40,101 nucleotides of DNA from contig DYNE01000020.1 in NCBI GenBank assembly GCA_020721225.1, positions 1 to 40,101 on the forward strand. The letters run 5' to 3'. A program made the position numbers and the translations under genes. Every line of letters starts with the position of its first letter. The first letter of the stretch is position 1. The notes beneath the pieces are model-generated. The model did not search any database and had not been told where the DNA came from. It worked only from the letters and a program-made list of their open reading frames with translations. The DNA comes from Pelodictyon luteolum. Lineage in GTDB: Bacteria; Bacteroidota; Chlorobiia; Chlorobiales; Chlorobiaceae. Below are positions 26,121 to 40,101 of this stretch, in pieces.

Positions 26121-27317
26121 ATGGCTAAGATACTTGAAGGGCCGGCTATGAAGCTATTTAACAAGTGGGGCATTCCTGTGCCAAACTATGTAGTTATCAT
26201 GGACCCGAACCGGCTTGAACAACTTGGTGAAGCTAATAAATGGCTGAGAGAATCAAAACTTGTTGTCAAAGCTCATGAGGCTATCGGCGGCCGTTTCAAG
26301 CTCGGCCTTGTAAAGCTCGGCCTGAATCTTGAAGAGGCGGTAGCTGCCTCACGCGAGATGATCGGTCGCGAGATCGGCACCGCCGTCATCCGTCAGGTCA
26401 TTGTCGCAGAAATGCTCGAACACGACGAAGAGTACTACCTCTGCATCAACGGCAACCGTGACGGTGCCGAAGTGCTGCTCTCCAACAGGGGAGGTGTCGA
26501 TATCGAGGAGAACTGGGACACGGTTCGCCGTCTCTTCATTCCTATCGACGAGAACCCCTCTGTTGAACGACTCACGGAATTTGCCGGCGAAGCCGGATTC
26601 ACCGGTGAAATTGCAGAACGGGTAGGTAAAATCGTATCACGCCTTGTCCTTTGTTTCGACAATGAAGACGCGCAATCAATAGAGATCAATCCGCTCGTCA
26701 TTCGCAAAAGCGACATGCGCTTTGCCGCACTTGACGCGGTCATGAATGTGGATTACGATGCCCGCTTCCGTCATGCCGACTGGGATTTCAAGCCGGTTTC
26801 GGAAATCGGACGTCCCTTCACCGAAGCTGAACTGCAGATCATGGAAATCGACGCCCGTATCAAGGGTTCTGTCAAGTTCGTAGAGGTTCCCGGCGGCGAA
26901 ATAGCTCTTCTGACGGCAGGCGGCGGCGCCTCGGTATTCTACTCGGATGCCGTTGTGGCCAGAGGTGGCACCATTGCAAACTATGCAGAATATTCCGGAG
27001 ATCCGTCGGATTGGGCAGTCGAAGCCCTGACGGAAACCGTATGTGCCCTTCCGAACATCAAGCATATCATCGTCGGCGGCGCCATTGCAAACTTCACCGA
27101 TGTAAAGGCAACCTTCAACGGCATTATCAACGGATTCCGTGAAAGCAAATCGAAAGGCTATCTCGAAAATGTAAAAATCTGGGTCAGACGCGGTGGACCG
27201 AATGAAAATCAGGGCCTTGCCGCAATCAGAAAACTGCAGGACGAGGGCTTTGACATCCATGTGTACGACCGCAGTATGCCGATGACCGATATTGTTGACC
27301 TTGCACTGAATTCATAA
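26121..27317 (+). CDS. aclB: ATP-citrate lyase, small (beta) subunit
   Basis: Smaller subunit of ATP-citrate lyase, which cleaves citrate with ATP and CoA to acetyl-CoA, oxaloacetate and ADP: the key step that lets the TCA cycle run backwards for CO2 fixation. The 398-residue protein corresponds to the N-terminal part of animal ACLY: an ATP-grasp fold at about 1-240 (M-A-K-I-L-E-G-P-A-M-K-L-F; V-V-K-A-H), then a succinyl-CoA-ligase-like domain with L-L-T-A-G-G-G-A-S-V-F-Y-S-D, the citrate-binding region. The N-terminus and length match the two-subunit enzymes of green sulfur bacteria. AT-rich upstream DNA (25985-26120) should hold the promoter. No ribosome binding site is evident. Confidence 0.97.
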   Translation: MAKILEGPAMKLFNKWGIPVPNYVVIMDPNRLEQLGEANKWLRESKLVVKAHEAIGGRFKLGLVKLGLNLEEAVAASREMIGREIGTAVIRQVIVAEMLEHDEEYYLCINGNRDGAEVLLSNRGGVDIEENWDTVRRLFIPIDENPSVERLTEFAGEAGFTGEIAERVGKIVSRLVLCFDNEDAQSIEINPLVIRKSDMRFAALDAVMNVDYDARFRHADWDFKPVSEIGRPFTEAELQIMEIDARIKGSVKFVEVPGGEIALLTAGGGASVFYSDAVVARGGTIANYAEYSGDPSDWAVEALTETVCALPNIKHIIVGGAIANFTDVKATFNGIINGFRESKSKGYLENVKIWVRRGGPNENQGLAAIRKLQDEGFDIHVYDRSMPMTDIVDLALNS

Positions 27318-27380: not shown

Positions 27381-29213
27381 GTGAGTATATTAGCAAATAG
27401 GGATACACAGGTTGTCATCATAGGTGGCGTTGCCGGCCTGAATGCCGCAAGGAGGATGGCCCAGTTTGACTTTCTGATCAACAGGCCGCTCTCTGTAAAG
27501 GCATTTGTCTATCCCCCCGAAGAAGGCCAGCAGAAAGAGATCTACCGTGGCGGTGAGCTGAAAAACGTTCCCGTCTATTCGTCACTCGAAGATGCACTGG
27601 CTGAAAACCCGGGAATCAATACAGCCCTGATCTATATCGGGGCAAACCGTGCTTACCAGGCCGCAAAGGAAGCGCTTGAAGCAAGCAGCATCAAGCTGGT
27701 TTCAATGATTACCGAAGGCGTGCCTGAAAAGGATGCCAAAAGACTGAGAAAACTTGCCATCGAAGCCGGCAAGCTCTTCAACGGTCCCTCCTCGATCGGC
27801 ATCATGTCGGCAGGGGAGTGCCGTCTCGGCGTCATCGGCGGCGAGTTTAAAAACCTCAAGCTCTGCAACCTTTACCGTTCAGGCTCATTCGGCGTCATCA
27901 CCAAGTCGGGCGGGCTTTCGAACGAAGCCATGTGGCTCTGCGCACAGAACGGCAACGGCATTACCACGGCTGTGGCTATCGGCGGCGATGCCTATCCCGG
28001 TACTGATTTCGTCACCTACCTGGAAATGTTCGAAAAAGACCCTGAAACCAAGGCTGTCGTTATTGTCGGCGAAGTCGGCGGAACTCTCGAAGATGAAGCT
28101 GCCGAATGGCTTGCAGCGGAAAAACGCCGTATCCGTCTTGTCGCGACAATCGGCGGAACCTGCCAGGAGGTGCTGCCTCAGGGTATGAAATTCGGCCATG
28201 CCGGAGCAAAAGAGGGCAAGAAAGGCGTCGGTTCGGCTCGCGCTAAAATGAACGCACTGCGTGACGCAGGCGCTCTGGTGCCTGACACCTTCGGCGGCCT
28301 GTCGAAATGCATCAAGCAGGTTTACGAAGAGCTGCTCGCCGACGGAAGCATCAAACCGGAACCGGAGATCGACGAGGCGTTGCTGCCGGAACTGCCGCTG
28401 AAAGTTCAGGAAATCATGAAGCAGGGCGAAGTGATCGTCGAACCGCTCATCCGCACCACCATTTCCGACGACCGCGGCGAAGAGCCCCGTTATGTCGGTT
28501 ACGCCGCTTCGGAACTCTGCGAGAAGGGCTACGGCATCGAAGATGTCCTCAGCCTGCTCTGGAGCAAGAAGCTCCCTTCACGTGAAGAGTCGGAAATCAT
28601 CAAACGCATCATCATGATCTCCGCCGACCACGGGCCGGCGGTATCCGGAGCATTCGGAGCCATTATCGGCGCCTGTGCAGGCATCGATCTGCCTCAGGCG
28701 GTATCTGCCGGTATGACCATGATCGGACCACGTTTCGGTGGAGCGGTCACCAACGCCGGCAAGTACTTCAAGTATGGCGTCAAGGAGTATCCGAACGACA
28801 TCGCAGGCTTCCTCTCATGGATGAAGCAGAACGTCGGTCCCGTACCCGGAATCGGCCACCGCGTCAAAAGCGTGAAGAACCCTGACAAGCGGGTGAAATA
28901 CCTGGTCGACTATGTCAAGAACCACACCTCGCTGCACACGCCTTGTCTCGACTATGCGCTCGAAGTAGAAAAGATCACCACGTCGAAAAAGGACAACCTG
29001 ATCCTGAACGTTGACGGTACCATCGGCTGTATTCTTGTCGATCTGGACTTCCCGGAACAGTCGCTCAACGGCTTCTTCGTCCTGGCCCGTACCATCGGCA
29101 TGATCGGCCACTGGATCGATCAGACCACCCAGGGATCGAAGCTGATCAGGCTTTACGACTACCTGATCAACTACGCGGTAAAGGAAGAGCGCGAAGTACC
29201 CGTAAAGAAGTAA
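27381..29213 (+). CDS. aclA: ATP-citrate lyase, large (alpha) subunit
   Basis: Catalytic subunit of the citrate-cleaving enzyme. The 610-residue protein starts with GTG at 27381, preceded by AGGAAAG four bases upstream. Its N-terminal CoA-binding domain includes G-G-V-A-G-L-N-A-A-R-R. The active-site histidine that is phosphorylated is His273 in K-F-G-H-A-G-A. The C-terminal citrate-synthase-like domain (about 350-600) has P-G-I-G-H-R-V-K-S and E-V-E-K-I-T-T-S-K-K, as in eukaryotic ACLY. It follows aclB by 63 bases and ends at a strong terminator, so the two form a dedicated operon of the reductive TCA cycle. Confidence 0.97.
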   Translation: MSILANRDTQVVIIGGVAGLNAARRMAQFDFLINRPLSVKAFVYPPEEGQQKEIYRGGELKNVPVYSSLEDALAENPGINTALIYIGANRAYQAAKEALEASSIKLVSMITEGVPEKDAKRLRKLAIEAGKLFNGPSSIGIMSAGECRLGVIGGEFKNLKLCNLYRSGSFGVITKSGGLSNEAMWLCAQNGNGITTAVAIGGDAYPGTDFVTYLEMFEKDPETKAVVIVGEVGGTLEDEAAEWLAAEKRRIRLVATIGGTCQEVLPQGMKFGHAGAKEGKKGVGSARAKMNALRDAGALVPDTFGGLSKCIKQVYEELLADGSIKPEPEIDEALLPELPLKVQEIMKQGEVIVEPLIRTTISDDRGEEPRYVGYAASELCEKGYGIEDVLSLLWSKKLPSREESEIIKRIIMISADHGPAVSGAFGAIIGACAGIDLPQAVSAGMTMIGPRFGGAVTNAGKYFKYGVKEYPNDIAGFLSWMKQNVGPVPGIGHRVKSVKNPDKRVKYLVDYVKNHTSLHTPCLDYALEVEKITTSKKDNLILNVDGTIGCILVDLDFPEQSLNGFFVLARTIGMIGHWIDQTTQGSKLIRLYDYLINYAVKEEREVPVKK

Positions 29214-29247: not shown

Positions 29248-29288
29248 AGGCAGTCCCGGAATTTAAAACCGGGACTGCCTTTTTTTTT
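29248..29288 (+). terminator. intrinsic terminator of aclBA
   Basis: A perfect 12-bp stem (29248-29259 with 29269-29280), a nine-base A/T loop and nine Ts (29280-29288), located 35 bases after the aclA stop. A textbook Rho-independent terminator. Confidence 0.95.
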
Positions 29289-29376: not shown

Positions 29377-29404
29377 TTGTTGTATAATATAAATTATGTA
29401 AAGC
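29377..29404 (+). other. dif-like XerC/XerD recombination site (candidate)
   Basis: A 28-base sequence arranged as an 11-base XerC-like arm ending in ATAA, a six-base centre TATAAA, and an 11-base XerD-like arm TTATGTAAAGC. Compared from memory with the B. subtilis dif site it matches 19 of 28 positions, including nine in a row (TTATGTAAA) in the XerD arm, and 17 of 28 with E. coli dif. It could be the chromosome-dimer resolution site or the scar of an element that integrates through XerCD. Genome-wide context is needed to decide. Confidence 0.45.
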
Positions 29405-29427
29405 TGATAATATGCAGAGCATTTATA

Positions 29428-29455
29428 GCTTTACATAATAAGTGTTATTAAACAC
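29428..29455 (-). other. second, inverted dif-like site (candidate)
   Basis: On the minus strand this 28-base segment has the same XerD arm TTATGTAAAGC, a six-base centre CACTTA, and an arm ending in ATAA (GTGTTTAATAA). The two XerD arms face each other 23 bases apart and form a perfect 13-base inverted repeat (29393-29405 with 29427-29439). The XerC arm is weaker than in the first site. The arrangement recalls the paired inverted sites of Xer-exploiting phages, but the spacing is much shorter. Confidence 0.35.
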
Positions 29456-29527
29456 CTATATTCGCGAATCATCAAGGAAGAAATCGAGCGCATAGATCGT
29501 GAGCCGGCGCAGAAATGAAAACATTTG

Positions 29528-30280
29528 TTAGCTCACGAGACGCAGAATGTCGTGCCAGGTAATGACGATAGACAGCCCGATAAAAAGCATAATGCCGGTA
29601 AAGTTGATAACCTGATACGCTCTCGATCCGAGAGGACGGTTACGCAGGGCTTCGATCAGCAACAGCATGAGCTGACCGCCATCGAGTCCGGGAAACGGCA
29701 TCATGTTCATGATTCCGAGGCTGAGACTGAGAACTCCTGTGAAAAAAAGCAGATCCGGAAGCCCCGCACTCGCCGCCTGTCCGACCATTACGGCAATCCC
29801 GAGAGGCCCGGCAAAACTTTCCATGCCTCCCTGACCGGCGAAAAGATGACCAAGCATGGAAAACGTCCCGGCTACCACCATCCAGAGAGCATTTGCGCTC
29901 GACTGCATCGCCTGCAGCAACGAACCGCCTTCTTTCCCCATAAAAGCCGGAATAAAAACCAGAAAGGCGAAAACCACGTTGAACAAAGGGCCTCCTACCA
30001 TAATCGAAGCACGAGAAAAACGTGAAGCACTGAACAGCTTGTGCGCATCTTCGTCTCCGTCAGCCGAAAAACTCACGAAACCTCCAAGCGGCAACAGGCG
30101 CAGCGTGAACTCGGTCTCCTTGTGGCGATACAGGGTCGCGATGCGCGGACTGAACGGAAAGCCGACGGAAAACTCATATACCGGGACGCCTGCCTTGCGG
30201 GCCGCGAGAAAATGACCGAACTCGTGGACAAGCACCACAAGCGACATGACGATTATAAAAGCAAGTACAGAAACAATCAT
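29528..30280 (-). CDS. site-2 protease family (M50) membrane metalloprotease without PDZ
   Basis: A 250-residue intramembrane zinc protease. H-E-F-G-H at residues 19-23 in the first helix binds zinc with the conserved aspartate of M-P-F-P-G-L-D-G-G (about 195-203). Four hydrophobic segments are visible. Classical RseP proteins have about 450 residues with one or two PDZ domains between the catalytic helices; here only a short G-G-F-V-S-F and R-A-S-I-M-V-G-G-P-L-F-N-V linker is present, so this is a minimal member and probably not the sigma-E-pathway RseP. The substrate is unknown. It appears monocistronic. Confidence 0.9.
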   Translation of the reverse strand: MIVSVLAFIIVMSLVVLVHEFGHFLAARKAGVPVYEFSVGFPFSPRIATLYRHKETEFTLRLLPLGGFVSFSADGDEDAHKLFSASRFSRASIMVGGPLFNVVFAFLVFIPAFMGKEGGSLLQAMQSSANALWMVVAGTFSMLGHLFAGQGGMESFAGPLGIAVMVGQAASAGLPDLLFFTGVLSLSLGIMNMMPFPGLDGGQLMLLLIEALRNRPLGSRAYQVINFTGIMLFIGLSIVITWHDILRLVS

Positions 30281-30410: not shown

Positions 30411-32048
30411 TCATGATTTCGCTGCATCGGAAAATCCTCCGGCATGGGCTATGCCGGCAAGCGAGGCCATATCCGCCCTGCAGGTTACCAGATCCTCCCT
30501 GCTGAAATCGCCGAGCCTCCGGTAGCCGCACGCGCGGGCCATAACCTGCATCAAAGCCGTGGTGTTCAACAGGTAATTGCGGAGCCTTTCGGCAGCTTTC
30601 CCTATCGCCACCCGCTCCCTGAGAACAGGGTCCTGCGTGGCGATACCCACCGGGCAGTGGTTGTTGCCGCATACCCGCATGGAGAGGCAGCCGATTGCCT
30701 GAATGGCGGCATTGCCGATGGCGATGGCATCCGCCCCGAGAGCCAGGGCCTTGAGGTAATCCGTTTCCGTGCGCAGGCCGCCGGTGATGACGAGCGAAAC
30801 GCTCGCGGCTCCGCACCGGTCGAGATGTGCGCGGGCACGCGCGAGGGCGGGAATGGTGGGTATGCCGGTGTGGTATTTCACGAGATCGGGCGATGCTCCC
30901 GTACCTCCGCCACGTCCGTCGAGAATGATGTAATCGGCACCGGCCTCAAGCGCAAAATCGATATCCCGTTCGATATGCTGGGCAGACATTTTGAACCCTA
31001 TGGGGATGCCTCCGGTCGCCTCGCGGATCTCTTCGGAGAAATCCCTGAAATCCTCCGGGGTGGAGAGATCGGGAAAACGGGAGGGCGAAACCGCTTCCTC
31101 ATAAGGCAGAAGCCCGCGCGTTTCGGCGATCTCCGGGCTCACTTTCGCTCCAGGCAGAATGCCTCCGATTCCGGTTTTGGCGGCTTGGCCGGCCTTGAAA
31201 TGAAACGCCTGGCAGCGCTTGACTTTGTCGATATTCCAGCCGAATTTAGCGGGCGCAAGCTCATAGAAATATCGGGAGTTCTCTCTCCTCTCATCCTCCA
31301 GCATGCCGCCTTCGCCTGAAGCTATACCGGTTCCGGCCATCTCTGCGCCTTTTGCCAGCGCGATTTTAGCTTCGCGCGACAACGCTCCGAAGCTCATGTC
31401 TGTTACGAAAACCGGTATGGACAGCGTAATGGGAATCCGCGCGTTCGGCCCGATAACGACTGTGGTATCAACCGGTTCATCTTCTAAAAAAGGCTGTCTT
31501 GAGAGTTGCGCCGTGAGGATCTGGATATCTTTCCACTGCGGAAGATCGATCAGCGGAACTCCCATCGCCGAAACATTGCCATGGGCCGGAAACGTTGACG
31601 GCAACGTATCGGCAAGTTTGCGGATATACCTGTTGAAAGGCTCCTCCGGCGTATCGTTCGTATCGCCCCAGGCTTGGCCTCTACCGTTTTGCGGATGCCG
31701 GGTTGACCAGCTCGCGACTTCGTTTTCATCCACATAGACGGCATTGTCTGCCTTGTCGATCCATGCCGCGAAGCGTTCGAGCTTTTCGTCGTTGTTGTAT
31801 TCGCTTATTCCGGTATCGAACCGGTAGTCCCAGCCATGCACGCTGCACAGAAGGTTCTTTCCGTCGATAGATCCGTCGGCCATCAGGGCTCCGCGATGAT
31901 GGCACCGACCGTAAAGTACCGAGACGCTTTCTCCGTAACGGATGACGACAAGGTCAACGTTCAATACCTGCGCATAAGCAGGTTTTTTCTCTTCGAGCTC
32001 GCTCCATGTTGCGACCTTTACTTTTTTCGTCGGTAAGCTATTATTCAT
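30411..32048 (-). CDS. Rieske [2Fe-2S] - glutamate-synthase-like (GltB2) fusion
   Basis: A 545-residue fusion. Residues about 8-108 are a Rieske ferredoxin domain with C49-H-H51-R-G and C68-S-V-H71, the 2Cys/2His ligands of a [2Fe-2S] cluster. Residues about 155-530 are the FMN-binding glutamate-synthase domain, with G-E-G-G-M, I-L-D-G-R-G-G-G-T-G-A and a [3Fe-4S] motif C454-x5-C460-x4-C465 followed by P-V-G-I-A-T-Q-D-P. The glutaminase domain of true GltB is absent. In the family such proteins transfer electrons to 2-oxoglutarate plus ammonia or to related substrates. The Rieske part may bring electrons from a carrier instead of NADPH/GltD. The gene stands alone, with no glutaminase or gltD gene nearby. 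The reaction is not established. Confidence 0.9.
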   Translation of the reverse strand: MNNSLPTKKVKVATWSELEEKKPAYAQVLNVDLVVIRYGESVSVLYGRCHHRGALMADGSIDGKNLLCSVHGWDYRFDTGISEYNNDEKLERFAAWIDKADNAVYVDENEVASWSTRHPQNGRGQAWGDTNDTPEEPFNRYIRKLADTLPSTFPAHGNVSAMGVPLIDLPQWKDIQILTAQLSRQPFLEDEPVDTTVVIGPNARIPITLSIPVFVTDMSFGALSREAKIALAKGAEMAGTGIASGEGGMLEDERRENSRYFYELAPAKFGWNIDKVKRCQAFHFKAGQAAKTGIGGILPGAKVSPEIAETRGLLPYEEAVSPSRFPDLSTPEDFRDFSEEIREATGGIPIGFKMSAQHIERDIDFALEAGADYIILDGRGGGTGASPDLVKYHTGIPTIPALARARAHLDRCGAASVSLVITGGLRTETDYLKALALGADAIAIGNAAIQAIGCLSMRVCGNNHCPVGIATQDPVLRERVAIGKAAERLRNYLLNTTALMQVMARACGYRRLGDFSREDLVTCRADMASLAGIAHAGGFSDAAKS

Positions 32049-36202: not shown

Positions 36203-37237
36203 ATGCATCCGCCTGATCTGCACCTCTTCGATCGATTGCCCGACGGGTTCACCGGAATCGGTACCGAAAAACTCGACTCGATTCTCCCGGGCCCTTCGCT
36301 CATCCGTATCGAGGGCGAAAATGGGTCGCCACTCTTCGTTTCGATCCTGCTGCACGGCAACGAAACCACAGGGTTTACAGCCATGCAGCAACTCCTCGCC
36401 GAATACGGCGCTCCCCACTGCGCGCTGCCGAGACCGTTGCTGCTGTTTGTCGGCAACGTCGCCGCTGCCGTACGGGGCGTGAGGAAACTCGAAGGTCAGG
36501 CCGATTACAATCGTATCTGGCAGGGGGAACGATATCCGGAACACCTGCTGGCACGGCATGTTCTGGCAGAAATCGTCAAGGCGGCTCCGATTGCCGGTAT
36601 CGACCTGCACAACAACACCGGAAAAAATCCGCACTATGGATGCGTCAACCGGCTCGACCACAGCTCCCTCTCACTCGCCCGGCGGTTCAGCAAAACCATC
36701 GTCTGGTTTACGGAACCGCACGAAGTCCTTGCTGTCGCGCTCTCCGCGATTTGCCCGGCGGTTACACTTGAGTGCGGAGTGTCAGGCGATGCGGCAGGGA
36801 CAAAGCATGTCGAAAATTATCTCCGGCATTGCCTTGAACTGCCTGAGGAGAGCCTTTTCACTCCACCGGCCAACCACCATAACGATCTCTTTCATACCAC
36901 AGCAAGGATGCTCCTCTCTGAAGGAATCCGGCCCGGATTCGGCCGGTGCTCTGATGAAACGGATGTCTGTTTTCGTGAGGACCTCGAAACGCTCAATTTC
37001 GAAAGGGTGCCGGAAGGAACGGAACTGGGGCTTTACCGCAACGGCGTTCCCCCGATCATGGTCATCGACAACCTCAACCGCAACGTCACCGACCGCTACC
37101 TCCTTTTCAGCGAGAACCGTATTCTCACCAGGGTGCCGGTTGTACCGTCTATGTTCACCAGTGATGTGAAGGTTATTATGCAGGATTGCCTCGGCTATAT
37201 CATGGAGCCTTACGAAGCGAAATGGGAAAAAATGTGA
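36203..37237 (+). CDS. M14-type aspartoacylase / succinylglutamate desuccinylase-like hydrolase
   Basis: A 344-residue zinc hydrolase of the AstE/AspA branch of the M14 carboxypeptidases. Zinc ligands are H51-G-N-E54 in I-L-L-H-G-N-E-T and H136 in G-I-D-L-H-N-N-T-G; V-T-L-E-C-G further on is the likely position of the catalytic glutamate. Enzymes of this type cleave an acyl-amino-acid amide. The ATG at 36203 (M-H-P-P-D) is chosen; another at 36185 would overlap the ligase gene by 13 bases. Acting next to a carboxylate-amine ligase, it may undo or trim the ligase product (inference). Confidence 0.82.
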   Translation: MHPPDLHLFDRLPDGFTGIGTEKLDSILPGPSLIRIEGENGSPLFVSILLHGNETTGFTAMQQLLAEYGAPHCALPRPLLLFVGNVAAAVRGVRKLEGQADYNRIWQGERYPEHLLARHVLAEIVKAAPIAGIDLHNNTGKNPHYGCVNRLDHSSLSLARRFSKTIVWFTEPHEVLAVALSAICPAVTLECGVSGDAAGTKHVENYLRHCLELPEESLFTPPANHHNDLFHTTARMLLSEGIRPGFGRCSDETDVCFREDLETLNFERVPEGTELGLYRNGVPPIMVIDNLNRNVTDRYLLFSENRILTRVPVVPSMFTSDVKVIMQDCLGYIMEPYEAKWEKM

Positions 37238-37303
37238 TCGGAAAACAAGAATAAGCCAAAAACGGAAAATAAGAATCACCCAGGGTTAGCGTAAAAAACA
37301 CCC

Positions 37304-37350
37304 ATAGCTCGTAGTTTGAAGGTGCCAACCAAATCAAACTCCAGAGCTAT
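37304..37350. repeat. double-stem inverted repeat, possible insertion-element remnant
   Basis: ATAGCTC (37304-37310) pairs with GAGCTAT (37344-37350), and inside it AGTTTGA (37313-37319) pairs with TCAAACT (37334-37340). Just downstream AAGGAC precedes a 20-codon frame from ATG 37358 that ends without resembling anything complete. An ACACCCAT octamer occurs on both sides (about 37298 and 37447). These signs, in the gene-free gap 37238-37476, fit the decayed end of a small insertion element, but no transposase remains. Confidence 0.35.
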
Positions 37351-37476
37351 AAGGACATGTCGATAACTCCCGAATGCATCTCCTCTGGATCACGTGGGGA
37401 AACATATCAAATACAATGACAAGAGTCGCCCTCTAAAAAATAGCTGAACACCCATTTTTACTGACTAACCAGGGCG

Positions 37477-37992
37477 TCATGGAAACTCCACATGCGCGAT
37501 ACATTCGCCCGAAGGATTGAAGAGAAAAGATTCTCTCCTTGTAACATGGAAAGCAACACCTGACAATTGCCCTCTGGAATAGAGTTTATTCCCCTCCTTG
37601 CATTGCTCATCAACACAGTAAAAAGTGGCAATTCTTGGATAATCCGGAGCTGAAAACAGGCGTATTGAAAGCAAATGTCCGTCATCTCTATAAAACATAG
37701 TTTTCTCCTGATTTCCTTTATCATTGACTATTGATACGACATATGCAATAGGAGGAACCGGGTTTAAGGTGACATAACGATTACTAACCATTGCCCGGCC
37801 ATTTATTAATGCCTGCATGTTATCCTCATAATCAGGATCGACCCTGGGATACTGAGATACATCTATCGTGTAGCTGATATTTCGAAAGGCATTCTCTCTG
37901 GCAGTTTCTTCTGTCCACATTGAATCACCAAATAACAATGCCGGATACAGCAGTATCACAAGACTTTGTATAAGCATTAATCTTTTCATCAA
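37477..37992 (-). CDS. secreted protein of unknown function
   Basis: A 171-residue protein with a clear signal peptide (M-K-R-L then L-I-Q-S-L-V-I-L-L-Y-P-A-L-L-F-G). The mature part has no motif I recognise. It holds F-Y-R-D-D-G-H-L-L-S-I-R-L-F near residue 100 and F-L-F-N-P-S-G-E-C-I-A-H-V-E near the end, a spacing loosely like the beta-hairpin repeats of MORN/YwqK-type proteins, plus two cysteines (F-Y-C-V-D-E-Q-C). The gene is more AT-rich than the core genes to the left. An ATG one codon in is an equally good start. Confidence 0.7.
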   Translation of the reverse strand: MMKRLMLIQSLVILLYPALLFGDSMWTEETARENAFRNISYTIDVSQYPRVDPDYEDNMQALINGRAMVSNRYVTLNPVPPIAYVVSIVNDKGNQEKTMFYRDDGHLLSIRLFSAPDYPRIATFYCVDEQCKEGNKLYSRGQLSGVAFHVTRRESFLFNPSGECIAHVEFP

Positions 37993-38214
37993 TTGATATT
38001 CTAAAGTTTCGAAAAAAAGCGATATACATTACAGACTTTATATAAACTCAAAGCATGCCCGTCAATATGCATAATCCGGAAAAACGGATACATCAGCAGC
38101 ACTGCACCTATCGATTACCCGATCACCTTGCCCCAGCGACAAACTGTACCACAATATTTTCAGACTTACGACACTATCAATAACAGAAACTGTATCAAAC
38201 AAGAAAAATATCGA
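37993..38214. other. gene-free, AT-rich gap
   Basis: 222 bases between two minus-strand genes. It should hold the promoter of the upstream-facing secreted-protein gene. No open frame or strong hairpin was found. Confidence 0.4.
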
Positions 38215-39510
38215 TCAATTCACACGTTTAAATATCTCAAGAAATTCAGAAATCTTCTCATGTTCATCTTTTGACAATGCATTTCCGTTAGCCAAAGCAT
38301 GCTCATAAATTCTGAATACCATATGAATCATAAACTCTGCTTCAACAACCTTTCCTTGCTTCAACAATGTTGCCGAAAGATCCAGATAATCATAACCCAT
38401 ATTCAAGTTTTTTGTTCCAGACGTTTTTTTATCGATACGGAGAGCCTGCCGAAAATACTTCTCGGCCTCATTATATTGCCCTTTATTTTTATACCATTTT
38501 CCAAGATAAGCTGAATCTGCTGCGATTAAAGGATGATCAGAACCTAAGGTTTTTTGCCTGATCTCCAGTGACCTCAGGAGCATTGACATTCCCTCTTCAT
38601 ATTTTCCCTGTTTACATAATAAATCTCCACAACTGCCGATACAGGTTGCAAAATCAGGATGATCCTGGCCATTTTTCTTTTCTAAAATTGCAAGCGCTCG
38701 TTTATAAAGCAATTCCGACTCAGAAAACTTCTCTTGTTCTTCAAGCAAAATGGCCATATTGTGCAAACTTTCCGCTACATCCTGATGTTCGGGACCAAGT
38801 AACGTTTCTCTACTCGCAAGTGACTTCCGATAGAGAATTTCCGCTTCGCCCGTATTTCCTCGATTTTGCAACACCAGAGCCAGATCGTTTTGACTCAATG
38901 CCACATCCCTGTGCACCAGACCGAAAAATTTTTCCCTGATGGCAAGAGCTCTGCGTAAAAAAGATTCAGCATCGGCCATTCTGTTCTGATTATAATACAG
39001 AAGTCCAAGATTATTCAGACTCTCAGCAACATCCGGATGCTCGGAACCAAGCTGTTTTTCGCGAATCGAAAGAGCTCGGCGATGAACCGATTCAGCTTCA
39101 ATAAAGTTACCCTGTTTGCGTAATAACTCCCCTAAACCATTCAGACTCTTTGCAACATACGGATGATCATTGCCATAGATCTGCTCTCTTATCTCAAGAG
39201 CTCTCAGATACAATGGCTTAGCTTCAGCATAGTTACCTGATACCCTCAAAACATCTGCCAAATCACTCAGACTTTCAGCAACATCACCAGATGTAGATCC
39301 GGATAGGCTCTCTCTGATCTTCAGCGACTTACGGTAGAGTTGTACTGCTTTCCGATGCTCTCCCCTTTCTACATGCGATTTTGCCATGACATGCAGATTC
39401 GAAGCATTTTCCAGCTCCCTTTTTGAATCAGCCCATACCTGATTCATCATAAACATCATCGATACATAAAGCAGAACAAAACAAACTGGCAGATACGTCA
39501 ATTTTTTCAT
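38215..39510 (-). CDS. secreted tetratricopeptide (TPR) protein, kinesin-light-chain-like repeats
   Basis: A protein of 431 residues from the ATG at 39510 (M-K-K-L-T-Y-L-P-V); an in-frame ATG at 39546 would give 443. A signal peptide (about 1-26, ending M-N-Q-V-W-A) is followed by nine consecutive 42-residue repeats of the TPR_12 type. Each has the pattern L-x-x-L-G-x-L-L-x-x-Q-G-x-Y-x-E-A-E-x-L-Y-x-R-A-L-x-I-R-E-x-x-x-G-x-x-H-P-D-V-A. Repeats 2-6 are the most regular and the last ones drift. Such arrays are protein-binding scaffolds; partners are unknown. The gene is AT-richer than the core region. Confidence 0.85.
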   Translation of the reverse strand: MKKLTYLPVCFVLLYVSMMFMMNQVWADSKRELENASNLHVMAKSHVERGEHRKAVQLYRKSLKIRESLSGSTSGDVAESLSDLADVLRVSGNYAEAKPLYLRALEIREQIYGNDHPYVAKSLNGLGELLRKQGNFIEAESVHRRALSIREKQLGSEHPDVAESLNNLGLLYYNQNRMADAESFLRRALAIREKFFGLVHRDVALSQNDLALVLQNRGNTGEAEILYRKSLASRETLLGPEHQDVAESLHNMAILLEEQEKFSESELLYKRALAILEKKNGQDHPDFATCIGSCGDLLCKQGKYEEGMSMLLRSLEIRQKTLGSDHPLIAADSAYLGKWYKNKGQYNEAEKYFRQALRIDKKTSGTKNLNMGYDYLDLSATLLKQGKVVEAEFMIHMVFRIYEHALANGNALSKDEHEKISEFLEIFKRVN

Positions 39511-39550
39511 AGTCATTGTGGGGGTATCAGGAGTATTTCGAATCATATAA

Positions 39551-39693
39551 GGGCTCCTCGAAAAAGTGTCGTGAACGCCCTGACTGCAAGACGGACGGAG
39601 TCCCGATAAATCGGGATAAACTACAAAACCGGAGTTCCGACAAGTCGGGGCAACGCAGCAATCCGGGGGCTGAACAACTTTTTCAAAATGCCC
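39551..39693. mobile_element. 143-bp inverted-repeat element with two internal hairpins (MITE-like)
   Basis: The ends are imperfect inverted repeats: GGGC-n5-GAAAAAGT at the left (39551-39567) and its counterpart read inward from GCCC at 39693. Inside are two tandem copies of CGGAGTyCCGAyAArTCGGGr, each a small hairpin: 39601-39607 with 39610-39616, and 39637-39641 with 39644-39648. It has no coding capacity. It abuts the point where the downstream HNH gene stops resembling its family, which suggests insertion or recombination there. Confidence 0.55.
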
Positions 39694-39716
39694 ATAATGT
39701 GGAAATCGGCGATCAA

Positions 39717-39833
39717 GACCGCTTTGAACAATTGATTCCCTGATGGCTGCCAGAAGTTGACCTCTTCGATGAATGGCTGACTCCGGAGGAGTTGAAACCA
39801 GTCATGATCTGTGACCCCGAGAAATGCCTTCAT
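39717..39833 (-). pseudogene. truncated HNH-endonuclease-family gene (5' fragment)
   Basis: From ATG 39833 the minus strand encodes M-K-A-F-L-G-V-T-D-H-D-W-F, then L-R-S-Q-P near residue 16 and E-V-N-F-W-Q-P-S-G near residue 24. This is the characteristic N-terminus of a family of HNH endonucleases. Similarity ends after F-K-A-V at about codon 39, next to the inverted-repeat element, although the frame stays open to 39621. The remaining roughly 250 residues, including the HNH motif, are absent. I recognise the family from memory of its N-terminal motif. Confidence 0.6.
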
Positions 39834-39860
39834 ATCCGACACGATACTTTTGAACTGCAA

Positions 39861-40101
39861 GGCGAAAACAGAAAACCGTCATTATTTTTATCATGATGAA
39901 CTTGATCAGCATGGGGTGATCAAAGCTTGTAGCGTCAAGCGACACGCATAAATATTGCTATATTTACTAAACAGATACAACAAAAACAAGCAACTATTTT
40001 ATATCGGACTGTACTGTTTTCTGCACTTTGATGGCTTTATCTTAGAGTTCTTAAGGGAACCTCTATAAATTCTGATTTCCGAAAACGAGTCGACGAGAAT
40101 A
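39861..40101. other. AT-rich window edge, no gene recognised
   Basis: About 240 bases with several short inverted repeats, for example TTGATCA/TGATCAA around 39903-39924, but no convincing open frame. The final segment from about 40058 (GGGAACCTCTATAAATTC) looks like the edge of a repeated or mobile element that continues outside the window; this is only an impression. Confidence 0.25.

Follow-up and report, generated by a model that had tools for sequence, protein, structure and literature searches.

Two facing sites beyond the ATP-citrate lyase operon

The window, as the whole stretch of 40,101 nucleotides analysed here is called, contains two 28-base sites that face each other a short distance beyond the genes for ATP-citrate lyase. 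The features of this region are as follows, in window coordinates.

26121-27317, forward strand: ATP-citrate lyase subunit gene, 398 aa, on the XerC side of dif; assigned from sequence and synteny
27381-29213, forward strand: ATP-citrate lyase large subunit gene, 610 aa, on the XerC side of dif
29249-29288, forward strand: stem-loop with a T-run, the likely terminator of the lyase operon; read from the sequence and distinct from the dif hairpin
29377-29404, forward strand: site 1, assigned by comparison as the chromosomal dif; XerC arm TTGTTGTATAA, spacer tataaa, XerD arm TTATGTAAAGC
29393-29439, no strand: inverted repeat with perfect 13-base outer arms at 29393-29405 and 29427-29439
29405-29427, no strand: 23-base gap (the putative "empty D module"), whose bases pair and lengthen the XerD-arm hairpin
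29428-29455, reverse strand: site 2, a predicted mirror dif-like Xer site; XerC arm GTGTTTAATAA (8/11), spacer cactta, XerD arm TTATGTAAAGC (11/11)
29528-30280, reverse strand: short RseP-like site-2 protease gene, its 3' end toward site 2
30411-32048, reverse strand: Rieske/FMN glutamate-synthase-like gene, a neighbour in the variable region that is also present in G032, G001 and G004

A first-pass annotation, made from the letters of this DNA, had described two sites 23 bases apart with an identical XerD-like arm and a perfect 13-base inverted repeat, and this geometry was confirmed, the repeat being formed by ATTATGTAAAGCT and AGCTTTACATAAT in that order. Their placing after the ATP-citrate lyase operon was also correct, as aclBA ends at 29213. 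With up to one mismatch, TTATGTAAAGC was found in the window at just the two sites, 0.38 occurrences being expected, and TAA-N6-TTATGTAAA has four copies in the 2.62-Mb genome (144 contigs), two of which are sites 1 and 2. Site 2 matches the arms at 19 of 22 positions; the best score among 20,000 simulated flanks was 17.

The window's aclA and the RseP-like gene are convergent and the double site lies between them. This position, together with the stable hairpin, would suit a transcription terminator or regulatory hairpin. The operon, however, has its own terminator-like stem-loop at 29249-29288 (unflagged by the hairpin scan, whose loop limit was 8 bases), the stem of the dif hairpin is followed by no T-run, and the 28-bp Xer architecture is maintained in the relatives G103 and G004, so that a terminator is highly improbable here. 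The XerC arm of the mirror copy, and its spacer conserved in G103, speak against a regulatory palindrome, which the first-pass annotation had also suggested.

Clear orthologues of the RseP-like gene were found in G032 and G027 only, and homology of the window to G032 starts at 29510. A phage or transposon insertion to the right of site 2 was considered and rejected, as chromosomal-type genes alone lie there. Farther right, positions 37000-40101 have a G+C content of 0.415, against about 0.52, and carry a gene for a tetratricopeptide-like repeat protein; this may be an island.

Site 1 and the dif of the Chlorobiaceae

A dif-type pattern was found, with up to three mismatches, in 55 of 61 Chlorobiaceae genomes, and a reversed-pattern control gave counts near zero. 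In many Chlorobium the dif adjoins aclBA, downstream of aclA, and the site that recurs around aclA in relatives reads TTGTTGTATAA, a spacer of tataaa, tatata or tattag, and then TTATGTAAAG(T/C). The match of site 1 to the dif of B. subtilis at 19 of 28 positions holds.

The skew of the window's own genome was judged from the window and one complete relative, G075 (single contig, 2,364,842 bp): the latter changes from mostly positive to mostly negative around its dif at 1,225,614, and the GC skew of the window makes the same positive-to-negative turn at site 1. A profile search showed that the window's genome encodes XerD (TIGR02225, 358 bits, above the cut-off) and a XerC-like recombinase whose best match is to TIGR02224, with 309 bits, under the cut-off of 335.

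Judged by this comparison with its relatives, site 1 is the chromosomal dif of the Chlorobiaceae. The suggestion that the terminus lies here, with an unusual mirror site, is borne out by the family dif, the switch of skew sign and the Xer homologues; no better unique dif was found elsewhere, and TTATGTAAAGC is not present in many copies in the genome. Site 1 would be used by XerC/XerD in the resolution of chromosome dimers. The dif itself is not new, since dif has already been predicted in 11 of the 11 Chlorobi examined by Kono et al. 2011 (PMC3025954). Site 1 shares with known chromosomal XerCD dimer-resolution sites the 28-bp XerC-6-XerD arrangement, near-universal presence in the family, a position at the skew switch and the accompanying Xer homologues, but differs from them in having another, mirror-oriented Xer site 23 bp off on its XerD side.

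Two further occurrences of dif were recorded. One MAG, G103, has two full dif sites on separate contigs (L300:606-633 and L297:6844-6871), the second of which lies between a predicted AbiEii-like fragment and a predicted lipoyl-synthase-like gene. An intact dif of the Chlorobi type is also present on two viral contigs of IMG/VR (L255:61-87 and L256:1084-1110); in L255, some of whose genes, on inspection by eye, resemble those for terminase and portal proteins, the dif is close to one end.

The mirror site and its hairpin

Exactly mirrored XerD arms, 19-31 bp apart, were found in 4 of 86 family genomes, every time at a dif, and G032 provides a fifth case of a double site with a gap of 22. Comparison thus places the double unit at the equivalent position in at least four related genomes, and the gap between dif and mirror site is 20-24 bp across the units. 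The mirror site of G103, TTGTTGCATAA-cactta-TTATGTAAAGC, has the spacer of the window's site 2, and those of G104 (L044) and G004 have the spacer cctcaa in common. The XerC arm of the mirror site matches at 10 of 11 positions in G103 and G032, at 9 in G004 and at 8 in the window. The spacer cactta is confined to G103 and the window's genome (G000), as cctcaa is to G104 and G004; no other dif-like site with either spacer, and hence no free partner for it, was found family-wide beyond these paired genomes. On these comparative grounds site 2 is a Xer site in its own right, though partly decayed, and more than a shared half palindrome. We infer that it is still working, or that it worked once.

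XerD arms in mirror orientation occur in excess on the XerD side of dif, at near-constant offsets of 23-28, and some of them (L075 and L080) are XerD-only half sites. Both observations would be expected of an accessory element whose mirrored arm aids dif, for example in XerD loading or FtsK positioning. Most dif sites in the family have no mirrored XerD arm, however, and the XerC arm and spacer of the mirror site would have to be explained otherwise, which makes an accessory role very unlikely.

The stem of the hairpin extends beyond the 13-base repeat to the middle of the gap through paired gap bases (z = -6.2), and a comparison of five genomes shows four of its pairs with both partners altered. 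In the window the gap is a partial palindrome, and in G004 a nearly perfect one. Folded by itself, the gap does no better in most cases than shuffled sequences, which leaves selection on the fold unproven. A palindromic gap is what would be left if template switching near the terminus, where replication forks meet close to dif, had reverse-copied part of dif to give a functionless mirror copy that is now drifting. Yet the mirror spacer is unlike that of dif, while the XerC arm matches as closely as stated above in G103, G032 and G004; the mirror spacer is conserved within two genome pairs; and the mirror site of G032 has a homologue in the window's genome, a stand-alone secondary site on contig C91. 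Template switching could account for the hairpin, but a conserved spacer unlike that of dif is beyond it, and a quasi-palindrome is considered unlikely.

The XerC arms of the unit can pair as well, with the spacer left unpaired. The first-pass annotation had proposed, in addition, that a Xer-exploiting element attaches here or has left its scar, and a CTX-phi-like single-stranded DNA phage would leave such a structure if a folded attP of two inverted dif-like sites had integrated at dif and the phage had later been lost. The unit folds with both XerC and XerD arms paired around an unpaired spacer, as in the attP of CTX-phi (PMC5357621), and its orientation agrees with one of the expected junctions. 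However, no phage genes were found beside the units examined, the Zot family is absent from the 41 Chlorobium genomes searched, the gap is 20-24 nt and not 90 nt, and there is no second dif at a far end within the window. The D-D palindromes seen in viral contigs have no XerC arms and lie among tailed-phage-like genes (judged by eye), and they were set aside. We found no evidence of a phage scar and regard one as quite improbable. What stands of the proposal is that the mirror site is one of a group of secondary Xer sites that form the boundaries of exchanged genes.

Other arrangements of dif-like sites were also seen in the family. G005 and G095 have pairs in direct orientation, 21 bp apart (L165:4476-4552, L166:4731-4807 and L173:4385-4461). 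Inverted pairs with facing XerC arms lie at dif, 74 and 31 bp apart, in G095 (L169:5770-5899 and L172:170-299) and G093 (L186:1049-1135). Contig C91 of the window's genome (L182:1-1249) bears a WD40-repeat STAND-type gene, of which it has the 3' part, with a dif-like site of its own behind it, TTGTCGTATAA-taatag-TTATGTAAAGC.

Proposed gene exchange at Xer sites and known systems

The double unit is constant where its neighbours change. Homology between G004 and G104 runs over 81 bp, at 85%, from the XerC end of site 2 to the XerC end of dif, and the flanks are non-homologous. A protease gene lies directly behind site 2 in G104, and in G004 a glutamate-synthase-like gene, a sensor-like lipoprotein and a permease are inserted between site 2 and that protease gene. 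The units of G103 and the window are 85% identical over 86 bp and the flank past site 2 differs, with a predicted dynamin-like GTPase gene in G103 versus the RseP-like protease gene in the window. The mirror site of G032 ends a WD40-repeat STAND-type gene that separates this site from the RseP-like gene, and the mirror site with 40 bp upstream matches the site that ends the related gene on C91. Upstream of the WD40 STAND-type gene, TTATTATATCA-tgataa-TTATGTAATGA might be taken for a Xer site, but it is more likely an operator or promoter palindrome and was not used.

In many genomes large genes are followed at the 3' end by extra dif-like sites that have the strand sense of the gene. Among the genes preceding such secondary sites are Avs3a (3003 bits, NCBIfam), Hachiman HamB (1440 bits) and a gene for a TIR-domain protein, and also non-defence genes, one for an aconitase-family protein and one for a radical SAM protein. 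Weak PADLOC hits were discounted, as seven large G075 genes run as a control scored alike, and the "sites" of L176 and L179, which lie inside a coding gene, were dropped as orthologous coding sequence.

Among the 102 homologous alignments made over 86 sites, 51 stop no more than 10 bp from the site and 12 run across it; the pairs are non-independent and come mostly from fragmented draft MAGs with some sites close to contig ends, and a conserved dif beside fast-diverging intergenic DNA may end an alignment without exchange, especially below about 85% identity, so the weight is carried by the cases above about 90%. Two copies of the Avs3a gene, in two Chlorobium species, are among these.

L223:1860-8132 (G025:C4): Avs3a gene, ending at a dif-like site
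L224:128-6136 (G011:C22): Avs3a gene, ending at a dif-like site; cut on the 5' side, close to the contig end

The Avs3a module of G025 and G011 is 99.9% identical over 6.0 kb and the identity stops at the dif-like site; on the other side, G025 and G075 are homologous from the first base of that site. G011 and G075 share 15.9 kb at 95-99.8% identity up to the primary dif, and past it the identity is 73-79%. Comparison of the genomes shows, then, that dif and the extra dif-like sites are exact synteny breakpoints, and XerC/XerD are presumably the agents of the exchange.

Another Avs3a locus is found in G007. The HamB and Avs3a loci of this genome (L153 and L154) are each followed by a dif-like site, and the two sites have the spacer catgat in common and are alike over 53 bp on the XerD side. 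At one locus in five genomes (L161, L163, L171, L174 and L187) the XerD side is conserved, with a putative Fic-like gene, and the XerC-side genes differ, the joint being the dif-like site.

The best explanation of the locus, with a probability of about 0.6, is that it consists of dif and an "empty D module" in the sense used for the dif modules of Acinetobacter, and is part of an exchange of genes bounded by Xer sites. Site 2 would be a mirror-oriented Xer site whose spacer differs from that of dif and which is kept 20-24 bp from dif by the hairpin-forming gap, the pair acting as an empty D module with the XerD arms inward. The family would exchange DNA at dif and dif-like sites, with the joint inside the 28-bp site, and the gene on one side of the joint, often the XerC side, would be replaced. 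One end of the incoming DNA would be joined at XerCD sites with like spacers, and the other presumably fixed by homologous recombination. Site 2 would be the port behind which the neighbour has been replaced, by the RseP-like gene in the window and by dynamin-like, protease and permease genes in relatives, and its XerC arm in the window would now be decaying. The unlike spacers would stop dif from recombining with site 2. Against this explanation, no complete second module is seen in the window, and the XerC arm of site 2 matches at 8 of 11.

A wider reading is offered tentatively and is possible at best. Green sulfur bacteria might use their chromosomal Xer sites, dif included, as a standing port for gene exchange that takes in anti-phage systems (Avs3a, Hachiman HamB and TIR/WD40 STAND-type); the mirrored hairpin double site might be a dedicated dock whose different spacer lets cassettes come and go with dif undisturbed. 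If Xer acts here, it would provide a transposase-free route for the spread of defence genes, and how the cell keeps a vital site usable amid gene exchange becomes testable.

No report of dif modules or double dif sites in Chlorobi was found in the open-licence literature searched, and within that literature the double site and the traffic in defence genes appear unreported. Three known systems offer comparisons. IS1202-family elements next to pdif or dif sites (PMC10132070) also keep a fixed distance from Xer sites, but they bear a transposase and lie 5 bp from the XerC arm, whereas the window has no transposase and the relevant side is that of XerD. The folded attP of IMEX such as CTX-phi (PMC5357621) resembles the unit in having two inverted dif-like sites that can fold to a Xer site with an unpaired spacer. 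The window differs from it in its loop of 23 and not 90 nt, and has neither phage genes nor a right-hand, far-end copy of dif.

In Acinetobacter, D modules, one of them lacking reading frames, have been described, as has recombination of pdif sites whose spacers are alike (PMC13141974), and chromosomal dif modules have been reported (PMC12907356). The window's unit resembles these in its inverse Xer sites with unlike spacers and in being common to genomes with different neighbours. It is bounded by dif and site 2 with the XerD arms internal, and one unit has different neighbours, with joints at the sites, in both G004/G104 and G103/window. It differs in being chromosomal, with the primary dif as one boundary, in a different phylum, and in its gap of just 20-24 bp, which forms a hairpin; outer sites of a C module were not found. 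Nor do C and D modules alternate, as the 10.6 kb on the RseP side of site 2, to the right end of the window, holds no further Xer site, and the relation to Acinetobacter dif modules is therefore best seen as an analogy and not as membership. In the literature searched, the Xer-bounded modules described are those of Acinetobacter, and the Xer-exploiting elements are phages and islands of a few proteobacteria; in these green sulfur bacteria it is the dimer-resolution site of a phototrophic group, with its extra copies, that marks the joints of recent cross-species transfers, anti-phage genes included.
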